Assembly: GCA_029262235.1 (NCBI GenBank)
Contig: JAJCZU010000009.1
Coordinates: forward strand, 1 to 36,657
Reading direction: 5' to 3'
Length of the DNA: 36,657 bases
From: Candidatus Eiseniibacteriota bacterium
GTDB lineage: Bacteria; Orphanbacterota; Orphanbacteria; Orphanbacterales; Orphanbacteraceae
This document shows positions 20,458 through 24,919 of this stretch, piece by piece (position 1 is the first letter of the stretch; every line of letters begins with the position of its first letter). The position numbers were made by a program, and so were the translations under genes. The notes under the pieces are model-generated. The model was not told the DNA's origin, did no database searches, and worked only from the letters and a program-made list of their open reading frames with translations.

Positions 20458-22287
20458 CTACCGAATGATCACGGTCTTCATCGTGCGTTCGTCCTTCCCT
20501 GCTCGCAATCTCAGGAAGTACACGCCGCTTGCACTAGTCGCACCCTGATCGTTTCGCCCGTCCCACTCCACCAAATGGATTCCAGCGGGAACCTCTCGAT
20601 TGACGAGCGAGCGAACGAGCCGCCCACTTACGGCATACACTTCCAACGTGGTCTTGGCAGGAGCGGGGAGTCCGTACTCGATCCTGAGAGGGCTCGCGCC
20701 CGACGCTCGATGAGCACTGAGCCTGAGTGTGGTGACAGTAGCTGCGCCATCGGCTTTCTCTATGTAGGTCGAGTAGAGTCCGGTTGTCATCAGGAGAAAG
20801 TCTCTCTCTAGTCCTGGCGCGAGCGGAGGGGCTTCAAACTCCAAGGTGATTTTCTCGTTGGGAAGGAGCTCCACCTTACTCTCATCCTCCTCCATGAGCC
20901 AGGCTGAGACGTCTCCAAGTGTCGAATGCGAGGCAGAAAGCATCGCAAGCGTATCGAAAATCAGTGGCTCCGATGTAAGCCACACAAACCCGACATCATC
21001 GATCGAGTGCTCTGCTGTCCATCGAAGCCGCATGCGGGGATCTTCCTGAAGGGAAGACAGATATGGCGAAAGGTCCGTGAAGAATGGGGAGGTCTCCTCG
21101 CGGGGATGGATCACGGCAACTTCATTCCAGGTTCCGGGCTCATCCTGGTCCGGCAGGTCAACGCGGATCGACGGCTCGGCCTTCTGTCTAAGATTCTGAA
21201 TGATCCCTCCGCTTCCCTCCGTCGCAATCTTCCCCGCCGAGACCTGAAAGTCCTCACGTAGAAACTCGACTTCAAGATGCGACTCCGCGAGCCCCTCAAA
21301 CTCCAGCCCGTCGTTGGCCGAAAGCGATGCGCTCTGGTCAACTCCGAGATTGTCTCGGACGCTGAGCGGTCGCGCTATGTCGCGATACGACACAACTTGA
21401 TCCCCCAGGGTGAGTACAAGTTCGGATTCTGGCGCGTGATCGATCGCGACCAGACGTACATCATCGAACAGACTTCGTTCGGTCTCAAACTCACGAATTT
21501 CAATTCTGTAGCGTCCTGATTCGGCCACAGGTTCTTCAGTCAGCAGGTATCGATCGGAAACGGAAGAACTGTCACCGGATTCTGAAAGGATCGTATTGTC
21601 AAGCTGGAATCCAGAGCCATCCCAACTGGACACGTAGGGACATGACCCACCTCCGCCGCACCCAGTTCGAATCTTGAAGTACCCCTCTGTCGTATCCGAA
21701 TTCCCCGACGGAATCATATCGACTCGTATCTTGCAATTCTCGTTCGTCGGGCCTGCAACCTCCCAAACGTATTCCTGAGTCCCGCGGTAATCGGGAGCCG
21801 TGCCGTTGGGGACGGTGTCGATTACAGTCCAAGTTGCTCCCCTCAACACGTGGATTGAAACAAGAGTGTCGGTAAACGGCGATGCATCCCACCGAATGGT
21901 CAGATCCTTCCCCACTCCATAGCATGCACTATCTGCGTTCTCAACTTCGATATCCGTGCAGTCGGTCCAAATCGGGAAATATTCGGTCGTGTCGGATTTC
22001 CCCACGATGGGGGCGTTCGCACGATGCGGGATGAAATCGACGCGGAACCGTGCCCAGTGGGAGATGGAGTCCGTATCGACGATCCAGTCATCCCATGCCC
22101 AGGTACTGTCAAGGTCATAGCCGAGGGACGACAGTTTAAGGGAATCGGCGAGCGGCTCCCATATGTCGCATCGCTCCATGAAGATATCGACATAGCCTCG
22201 ATGAAACTCAGGGCTCGCCCACTCCAGCGTGAGCGTATCCCCCGGCGCATAGCACGATTCGATTTCTGTCACTGTCATCGGCTTCAT
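20458..22287 (-). CDS. Secreted-protein 3' part with FlgD/Por-like C-terminal domain (continues the 22348 frame after an amber codon)
   Basis: This 609-residue frame has Ig-like beta-rich segments (for example CYAPGDTLTLEWASP and GKDLTIRWDASPF, both TIG or Ig-like repeats). A region near CGGGGSCPYVSSWDGSGFQLDN is typical of extracellular repeat proteins. The C-terminal 80 residues read LEVYAVSGRLVRSLV, then WDGRNDQGATSASGVYFLRL and a basic end (MKTVIIR). That is the FlgD-like or Por/type IX sorting domain used by FCB bacteria to export and anchor proteins. The ATG at 22287 has no Shine-Dalgarno and no signal peptide follows. The same frame stays open upstream until the TAG at 22348-22350 and then continues as the 22348-23571 gene, so this is very likely the second half of one protein. 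Confidence 0.75.
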   Translation of the reverse strand: MKPMTVTEIESCYAPGDTLTLEWASPEFHRGYVDIFMERCDIWEPLADSLKLSSLGYDLDSTWAWDDWIVDTDSISHWARFRVDFIPHRANAPIVGKSDTTEYFPIWTDCTDIEVENADSACYGVGKDLTIRWDASPFTDTLVSIHVLRGATWTVIDTVPNGTAPDYRGTQEYVWEVAGPTNENCKIRVDMIPSGNSDTTEGYFKIRTGCGGGGSCPYVSSWDGSGFQLDNTILSESGDSSSVSDRYLLTEEPVAESGRYRIEIREFETERSLFDDVRLVAIDHAPESELVLTLGDQVVSYRDIARPLSVRDNLGVDQSASLSANDGLEFEGLAESHLEVEFLREDFQVSAGKIATEGSGGIIQNLRQKAEPSIRVDLPDQDEPGTWNEVAVIHPREETSPFFTDLSPYLSSLQEDPRMRLRWTAEHSIDDVGFVWLTSEPLIFDTLAMLSASHSTLGDVSAWLMEEDESKVELLPNEKITLEFEAPPLAPGLERDFLLMTTGLYSTYIEKADGAATVTTLRLSAHRASGASPLRIEYGLPAPAKTTLEVYAVSGRLVRSLVNREVPAGIHLVEWDGRNDQGATSASGVYFLRLRAGKDERTMKTVIIR

Positions 22288-22347
22288 CCAGTGAACTTTG
22301 AGCCGGGAGGTATGTGTATCGACGGCGACGATCCCCGCTGTCGGCGA

Positions 22348-22350
22348 CTA
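22348..22350 (-). other. In-frame amber codon splitting one secreted-protein gene
   Basis: The minus strand reads ATC TAG TCG. Both sides stay in the same frame, and the 20 codons after TAG (SPTAGIVAVDTHTSRLKVHW) are sensible coding sequence that runs straight into the next domain. A single C-to-T change from CAG (Gln) would explain it. Recent nonsense mutation, base-call error, or suppressed stop are the options. TAG serves as a normal stop elsewhere here (for example actA, actD and ctaF). Confidence 0.8.
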
Positions 22351-23571
22351 GATCGTGTCTCTCACCATGCAGCGGTAATCCTGCGATACAAGGCTGTCGC
22401 TCGGAAGCTGAATACGAAGATTGGGCCAAATCACATACTTGGGAAGGGAATCCCCCTGGCTGGTTGCATCGCTTTCCGTAAGCACCTGATGCAGGCTGTC
22501 GTAAGGGATCCAGGTCCCGCTCGAATCGATATCGATTTTCATCTCGACGTGAACAGCGCTCGAGTCCTGCCACAGCACGTAGATATCGAAACCTGATTTC
22601 ATGTAGACGATGTCGCCGATCGCGTAGTAGTGGACGCTTTCGGTATTGTTGAAAGGGTCATTGTCGGGTACGGTTTGATCCCCTCTCGAAAAGAGATCGA
22701 CCCAGCCCTTCTCCTGTGACGCGACGAGAATCCGGGGCTGGCCGACCTCCAGATCGCTGTTTTTGGCTGCTTCCAGCAATTGAGAATTGACAACTGGGTT
22801 GCCCGGATCCGCAAGCTTCGCACCCGGAATCAGGCCTCCCCGCCCCTCGGCAAATGGCTTGCTGATGCAAACGCTGTCCGGATGGATATTGCAGTCATGC
22901 GGCTCGGCGGTCGGGTTCCCGGCCTTCACATAAAAGTAATGGTCCCTCGTATCGACAAATGTGGTGTCAAGCGATTCGTTCTGATAGCGCATGGTCACGA
23001 TCGTCCGCAGCGTGTCGGGAGTCCAAAGCCACTGGGGGCCCGTGACATTCGGTGTCGTCAGCGTGCAGGGAAAATCGACCACGAAACAGGCAATCGCATT
23101 GCATCCGGTCTCCAACGGATCATGAAAATGACGCGCGGGAGGGGCCTTGATCCGGAGAGATGTGCTGCACGCCCAGGCCCACGTAGGGCTTGTCTTGGCC
23201 GGAGAAGCGTTGACTCCTTTCACTTCTGCTTCGAACGAAACTTCGAGAGTTCCGCGATAGAACGGATCCTCCATAAAAGGCACCCGTGGGAACCAGACGA
23301 AATCATAAAGACATTGTACGGTAAGACTCTCTCCGGTCTCGTACAGCCATCCCTTTTGTCCGGGGGCACCGTTTTGTGGGATATTGCCATCGTGAAAGAG
23401 TGCGAAATAGCAGGAGTCTTCGGGAGAGATCCAGGCCCGCAGTTCGGGCGCGATGATGTCGTCAGGAGTGTGGCCAAGAGTGAGAGCTGGCGTAGTGATC
23501 AGAACAAGGAGGCAAGTGAGAAGTTTCGTCGCGAGAATCGAATCACGGTAGTCGCCCGCCCGAGACTGCAT
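22348..23571 (-). CDS. Secreted-protein 5' part, signal peptide plus unknown beta-rich domain
   Basis: The 407-residue frame begins with a signal peptide (hydrophobic LLTCLLVLITTPALTLG near residues 17-33). The rest is an unrecognised extracellular domain rich in Cys, Trp, Pro and Asp, with DCNIHPDSVCISKPFAEG, DLEVGQPRILVASQEKGWVDLF and VHYYAIGDIVYMKSGFDIYVLW. The segment SDLEVGQPRI...DNDPFNNT is reminiscent of CARDB or Ig-like surface domains, but no family is certain. It stops at TAG 22348 just after QDYRCMVRDTI, in the middle of what looks like a beta-sandwich. GGAG 8 bases before the ATG overlaps the TAG stop of the upstream exported-protein gene, so the two are co-translated. Confidence 0.75.
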   Translation of the reverse strand: MQSRAGDYRDSILATKLLTCLLVLITTPALTLGHTPDDIIAPELRAWISPEDSCYFALFHDGNIPQNGAPGQKGWLYETGESLTVQCLYDFVWFPRVPFMEDPFYRGTLEVSFEAEVKGVNASPAKTSPTWAWACSTSLRIKAPPARHFHDPLETGCNAIACFVVDFPCTLTTPNVTGPQWLWTPDTLRTIVTMRYQNESLDTTFVDTRDHYFYVKAGNPTAEPHDCNIHPDSVCISKPFAEGRGGLIPGAKLADPGNPVVNSQLLEAAKNSDLEVGQPRILVASQEKGWVDLFSRGDQTVPDNDPFNNTESVHYYAIGDIVYMKSGFDIYVLWQDSSAVHVEMKIDIDSSGTWIPYDSLHQVLTESDATSQGDSLPKYVIWPNLRIQLPSDSLVSQDYRCMVRDTI

Positions 23572-23580
23572 GCCTGACTC

Positions 23581-24144
23581 CTAACGGAAGATGGACTTGA
23601 TGCTCCCCCAGCTCGACAGTTTTTCTTTCTTCGCCCGCGCTTCCTCGCGATTCAAATTCCAGCAGTAACGGATCGTGCTCGCATCCAGTCCATACCCCCA
23701 GCTCGAGGAGCCGTCACCGACAACGTAGTAGCGTCTTCCGCCCTGGAGGCATATGGTGATACGTTCGAAATAGTCGTTGCTTGCTGAATACGCGATACAA
23801 TCATTTTCATCACAACTGTTCAGCAGGAATAAGCTGGCGTCGGCGAAATGAGCATCCGGTCCAGTCTGTGTAATCTGGACAACTCGACGGGGTCCGGGGG
23901 GGATGTCGAGGATGCAGATGACTTCGCCTCCGGCCTGAAACCCGCCAAAGCAGTTATAAAACGGGACATTGCTCGGATGCTGACTAGGGTCTCCACCAAT
24001 CGGGCCACCGTCCAGCGGAAGTACGAGCAGGTTCTCGTCGCTGCAATCCAAGTTCCCGGCATAGGTTATGGCTGGTGATGTGATGTGGAATACGCCAAGG
24101 AGGTAAACAAGAGCGAGAGAAGGAAGGAAAAATATTTTGGACAT
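23581..24144 (-). CDS. Small exported Cys-rich protein, paralog 1 (PPC-like)
   Basis: The 187-residue protein starts at ATG 24144 (MSKIFFLPSL), chosen because GGAG lies 8 bases upstream; a longer frame adds a non-hydrophobic tail before the signal peptide. The mature part resembles a PPC-like beta-sandwich: GGEVICILDIPPGPRRVVQI, then LFLLNSCDENDCIAYS, then CLQGGRRYYVVGDGS. Seven Cys residues suggest disulfides in the periplasm or outside. The tail reads YCWNLNREEARAKKEKLSSWG-x-x-K-x-IFR (in part). It shares about half its residues, by eye, with the 24330 protein, including HP-x-NV-x-x-YNC and the whole tail. Function unknown. It is followed immediately by the long secreted-protein gene. Confidence 0.8.
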   Translation of the reverse strand: MSKIFFLPSLALVYLLGVFHITSPAITYAGNLDCSDENLLVLPLDGGPIGGDPSQHPSNVPFYNCFGGFQAGGEVICILDIPPGPRRVVQITQTGPDAHFADASLFLLNSCDENDCIAYSASNDYFERITICLQGGRRYYVVGDGSSSWGYGLDASTIRYCWNLNREEARAKKEKLSSWGSIKSIFR

Positions 24145-24190
24145 CAAATACTCCTTGGATTCTCTCGTGGAACGAAACAATCCTGTGGGA

Positions 24191-24329: not shown

Positions 24330-24872
24330 CTAGCGAAAGATCTCTTTAACTCTCCCCCAACTCGAAGACTCTCCGCGTTTCACGCGGCCTTCCTCTCGGT
24401 TTAGATTCCAGCAATAGCCCAAGTCATGGGCCTGCATCGTGTGTCCTTCGCCCAACGACCCATCGGAAACGATATAGTAGCGACGCCCCCCTTCCAGGCA
24501 GCGCGTGATTTCTGCACGTCCCAAACCAACGTCCCAAGCGATACAGCTTTCCTCATCGCAGTTTTCCAGAAGTAGGAGGCCCGCCCCCCCGATGTGGGGA
24601 TCGGGCCCTATCATGATGATCTCGATTCTTCTCCAGGGGCCCTCTGGTATGTCCAGTGTGTAGATTACTTCCCCACCTCCCCAAACTCCTCTGTTGCAAT
24701 TATAGGACAGAACATTGTCAGGATGACCGTCCGGTCCTCCAACTGCAGCACCGGTATCGAGGCCGAGCATCGTTACGTTGCCCTCACTGCAATCGAGAAG
24801 GCCTGCGGTGGCATGGCCGACAGAGGCGCAGAGTGACATCAGGATTAGCAGGCTGGTGAGGAAGAGATTCAT
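24330..24872 (-). CDS. Small exported Cys-rich protein, paralog 2 (PPC-like)
   Basis: The 180-residue protein starts at ATG 24872 (MNLFLTSLLILMSLCASVGHATA), a clear signal peptide; a longer frame would place extra residues before it. The mature domain matches paralog 1 in order: LDCS, HPDNVLSYNC, GGEVIYTLDIPEGP, LLLENCDEESCIAW, CLEGGRRYYIVSDGS, YCWNLNREE and the C-terminal SSWG-x-x-K-x-IFR. The beta-strand pattern and the 'aGrrYYiv' step are like bacterial pre-peptidase C-terminal (PPC) domains, which often attach to secreted proteins; here it stands alone. Function unknown. A TATAAT lies upstream at 24920-24925. Codon use is less GC-rich than in the operons on either side. Confidence 0.8.
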   Translation of the reverse strand: MNLFLTSLLILMSLCASVGHATAGLLDCSEGNVTMLGLDTGAAVGGPDGHPDNVLSYNCNRGVWGGGEVIYTLDIPEGPWRRIEIIMIGPDPHIGGAGLLLLENCDEESCIAWDVGLGRAEITRCLEGGRRYYIVSDGSLGEGHTMQAHDLGYCWNLNREEGRVKRGESSSWGRVKEIFR

Positions 24873-24919
24873 GGCCTTCTTTCGCGTAGCAATGGAGAGA
24901 AGAAGCACTGGTAACAATA

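Follow-up and report, generated by a model that had tools for sequence, protein, structure and literature searches.

On the minus strand of the window, translation of positions 23571-20458 gives a single frame of 1037 codons and a terminal TAG that is broken by exactly one internal stop, a TAG at 22348-22350 (codon 408), and this stop is probably a recent nonsense mutation in a gene for an exported protein of around 1037 residues. The window, the whole stretch of DNA analysed here, is one entire contig (C9, 36,657 bases) of a draft genome of 4.47 Mb in 11 contigs (95.5% complete) from a poorly known sediment bacterium. Its features are listed in Table 1.

Table 1. Features of the split gene and of the two genes upstream of it (positions in the window)
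Feature	Position	Strand	Basis or remark
Upstream half, 407 codons and TAG	22348..23571	-	start and signal peptide, without sorting domain
Downstream half, 629 codons and terminal TAG	20458..22347	-	same frame, no further lesions
Internal TAG stop (codon 408), next base T	22348..22350	-	translation
Coding-like stretch, 20 codons from TAG to next ATG	22288..22347	-	codon-usage score
Ribosome site AGGAG	23578..23582	-	-6.8 kcal/mol duplex; overlaps stop codon of preceding gene
Signal-peptide-like N-terminus, ~33 residues	23473..23571	-	by inspection
Two Ig-like repeats, residues ~433-637	21661..22275	-	repeat comparison
FlgD_ig / T9SS type A sorting domain	20497..20706	-	profile matches, FlgD structure match
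Adjacent upstream gene, 199-aa secreted protein, tail SSWGSIKSIFR	23581..24180	-	9 bases from its stop to start of split gene
Paralog of 199-aa gene, tail SSWGRVKEIFR	24330..24917	-	sequence

First, the reading frame is a lone-stop frame of the kind by which a nonsense-mutated gene is recognised, with otherwise intact coding sequence on both sides. By base composition, the chance of 629 open codons 3′ of the internal TAG is about 8e-9. The in-frame codon-usage score per codon is 0.113 in the upstream half and 0.108 in the downstream half, and the score is negative in the two shifted same-strand frames of both halves. The initial annotation had proposed one exported protein split by a lone in-frame TAG, and the single frame, single lesion and matching codon usage bear this out; it had also called the 20 codons after the TAG good coding sequence, which stands as far as their score is positive in frame (0.059, negative in every other frame) and overstates a stretch that is only modestly coding-like, with 18% of 20-codon stretches in the sampled genes scoring lower. 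These gene statistics come from about 420 kb of genome regions, partly picked around tRNAs and sorting-domain genes. A baseline count of same-frame split frames was dropped because antisense open frames swamped the count in this GC-rich genome.

Second, the two halves carry complementary export signals. At the C-terminus of the downstream half, FlgD_ig (PF13860) matches with E = 1.1e-10 and 41.7 bits against a cut-off of 27, and TIGR04183 (Por_Secre_tail) with 25.3 bits against a cut-off of 23, so that a sorting domain typical of substrates of the type IX secretion system (T9SS) is present above both curated cut-offs; matches to solved structures were to FlgD only, for this C-terminal domain. 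The genome also encodes T9SS machinery, as judged from SprA and PorU, both over their cut-offs. Inspection and these profile matches agree with the earlier claim that the signal peptide lies only upstream of the stop and the sorting domain only downstream of it. As sequenced, the TAG places the two on different polypeptides; only translation of the whole frame would join them, as in a T9SS substrate. An orphan sorting domain thus adjoins an orphan signal peptide in the same frame, which makes one protein the best reading. No known domain was found in the upstream half.

Third, no start within the downstream half is convincing, which bears on the alternative that the locus holds two distinct genes and that an internal start serves the second. 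The halves are only 60 bases apart, a gap that makes translational coupling conceivable, and ATG 22179 has a moderate ribosome-site match upstream (-5.6 kcal/mol); this ATG, however, sits 56 codons into the downstream half, within an Ig-like repeat. The initial annotation held that the internal ATG lacks a ribosome site; the sites of the first three starts are weak, with duplexes of -1.7 kcal/mol at ATG 22287 and -3.1 kcal/mol at ATG 22278 against -6.8 kcal/mol at the N-terminal start. The first starts 3′ of the TAG lead into no signal peptide, and a search around them found no promoter-like site, so a second gene would bear a T9SS sorting domain without the signal peptide, and the 20 codons ahead of the first internal start are themselves coding-like. 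We regard two genes as highly improbable.

A third, weaker Ig-like repeat may precede the two in Table 1 and contain the TAG. It rests on one hhalign comparison (E = 0.005), whose 38 aligned columns take in just the initial portion of the putative domain. Because this local match is partial and a three-repeat alignment is poor, the case for an Ig-like domain across the stop stays weak. An AlphaFold2 model of residues 280-640, read through the stop, had a mean pLDDT of 37 and was not used.

Under the favoured explanation, a recent nonsense mutation, the locus is one gene whose full-length product would be a protein of about 1037 residues exported by Sec and then by the T9SS. The mutation at codon 408 would be either fixed in the strain or still segregating in the sampled population; translation would end at the TAG, the truncated product would lack the sorting domain and hence would not leave through the T9SS, and the downstream half would not be produced in quantity. 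A single lesion in the frame implies an event that is recent or an error, and, if a mutation, its recency would follow from the lack of a second lesion. Broken secreted-protein genes do occur in this genome, among those inspected. The second of two tandem genes at L127 (G000:C4:514000-517000) appears frameshifted, with its signal-bearing part and its C-terminal tail (described below) in different frames, and near G000:C3:626802-627400 (L093) a sorting-domain frame of 102 aa has no start and is preceded by gene fragments in several frames, likely making it a decayed pseudogene. Counting against a mutation, in-frame stops are reported to persist under purifying selection in bacteria (PMC7918605).

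The same lone TAG could also arise from a consensus or assembly error in a gene that is intact in the organism. One substitution separates TAG from a sense reading, the sequence comes from a draft genome of 11 contigs, and public genomes commonly contain internal stops that assembly has introduced (PMC11017572). Against this, no stop interrupts the long conserved frames in other parts of the contig, which mildly favours mutation over error, and a stop falls inside a sorting-domain match in none of the 148 matches listed for the genome. We hold an error to be unlikely, though it is the alternative that we take most seriously.

A further alternative is some degree of read-through of the TAG, by which the gene would yield both a short product and a full-length one that includes the sorting domain. 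The frame 3′ of the TAG is intact, as this would require, and in-frame stops under purifying selection have precedent in bacteria (PMC7918605). However, we found none of the features that would indicate read-through, namely a UAG-reading tRNA, a leaky context or a stimulating RNA structure. All 44 tRNAs found in the 95.5% complete genome have sense anticodons and none reads UAG. The base after the internal TAG is T (+4U), a context reported to lower read-through in E. coli, though the study sees this effect mainly for UAA (PMC5289835). The 100 bases 3′ of the TAG fold worse than shuffled sequences (z = +1.46), with no unusual RNA structure. TAG is, moreover, a true stop here, ending the split gene itself and 87 of 222 sampled genes of at least 200 aa (39%; TGA ends 92 and TAA 43). 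Genome-wide reassignment of UAG was rejected on the same count. Read-through is very unlikely in our estimation, and a low, perhaps regulated rate that sets the share of protein given the T9SS sorting domain is slightly less probable again. If UAG were read through, one gene would yield a short product alongside a surface form that is exported; if the stop were also conserved, the locus would be a rare example of T9SS export under translational control. Of the three causes initially put forward, mutation and error are thus the ones favoured, and nothing positive speaks for the read-through switch. An interrupted gene of the ordinary kind is the best account; a regulatory switch is possible but unsupported.

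Comparison with relatives is consistent with one gene. Among 7 genomes of the phylum, the N-terminal part has homologs only in G005, the metagenome-assembled genome LQ108M_Bin_12, which has been assigned to Orphanbacterota in the FCB superphylum (PMC9727166). It was placed in one family with the window genome, which would accordingly belong to Orphanbacterota as well. The N-terminal part occurs in G005 in two copies with about 50% identity over about 200 residues, each preceded by a secreted protein of about 190 aa of the same kind as in the window. No match was found in the same-genus genome G001 (82% complete), and beyond G005 none was found in 145 wider relatives, in the genome_contigs collection (two scans) or in plasmids. 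The two copies (C12:1-600 and C18:1-600; L048 and L047) both run out at one and the same codon, where their contigs start. Towards that point the contigs become 97-100% identical over the last 300 bases, and it was probably at this common sequence that the assembly broke. The middle common to both copies is missing from the bin. A homolog of the C-terminal part, 42% identical, lies at the end of C5 (C5:154246; L035) and is open to the last bases of that contig. The proposed check against orthologs reached as far as homologs of both ends in G005 and fell short at the critical codon, where the G005 contigs break off on both sides and leave the codon in an assembly gap. Since every homolog runs open off its contig, a single continuous gene is likely, and the arrangement in G005 fits one uninterrupted gene across the gap.

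The secreted proteins encoded upstream of the split gene share a C-terminal tail. In the two window genes it reads S-S-W-G-x-[IV]-K-x-I-F-R-stop (23581-23613 and 24330-24362, minus strand), and about 73 collected frames end in T-x-T-E-x-S-S-W-x-x-[VIL]-K-x-[LM]-F-R-stop. Searching DNA for [ST]-W-x(2)-hydrophobic-K-x-hydrophobic-F-R-stop gave 75 matches in the genome itself; the 6 relatives had between 18 and 38 apiece, and the reversed pattern, used as a control, gave 0 in the phylum. Outside the phylum, G031, G075, G140, G178 and G277 had 5-17 matches and other genomes at most 1. A signal-like N-terminus is present in 70 of 73 tail frames by a simple hydrophobicity rule, and without their last 20 residues the frames fall into 37 BLAST groups. 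Residues that the pattern does not impose are conserved as well: T at -16 (50/72), T at -14 (52/72) and E at -13 (61/72). A tandem pair of paralogous tail proteins of about 190 aa, 80% and 57% identical to the 199-aa window protein, stands at L046 (G000:C7:71101-72186) without a large gene behind it. NCBIfam models did not match the two window tail proteins, and the tail motif strings that we tried did not occur in the literature searched. The tail thus recurs on dozens of secreted proteins that belong to different families, both in the phylum and in some other genomes. Judged from sequence, it could be a C-terminal signal for sorting or processing of a kind so far undescribed, and it looks more novel than the split gene itself.

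Finally, the split gene can be set beside known systems. A probable nonsense mutation matters mainly for annotation, the two predicted proteins being fragments of one. Like bacterial one-stop genes, which comprise nonsense pseudogenes, assembly artefacts and tolerated stops (PMC7918605, PMC11017572), it has a lone stop, an intact frame and unchanged codon usage downstream. It shares with T9SS type A substrates (TIGR04183/PF13860) a signal peptide, a long extracellular-type protein, a C-terminal sorting domain and a genome that encodes SprA and PorU, but differs from them in that, as sequenced, the signal peptide and the sorting domain stand on separate open frames. With UAG recoding by pyrrolysine or suppressor tRNAs it has in common a UAG within a long frame; unlike in those systems, a UAG-reading tRNA was not found, and UAG is a common true stop, including at the end of the split gene.
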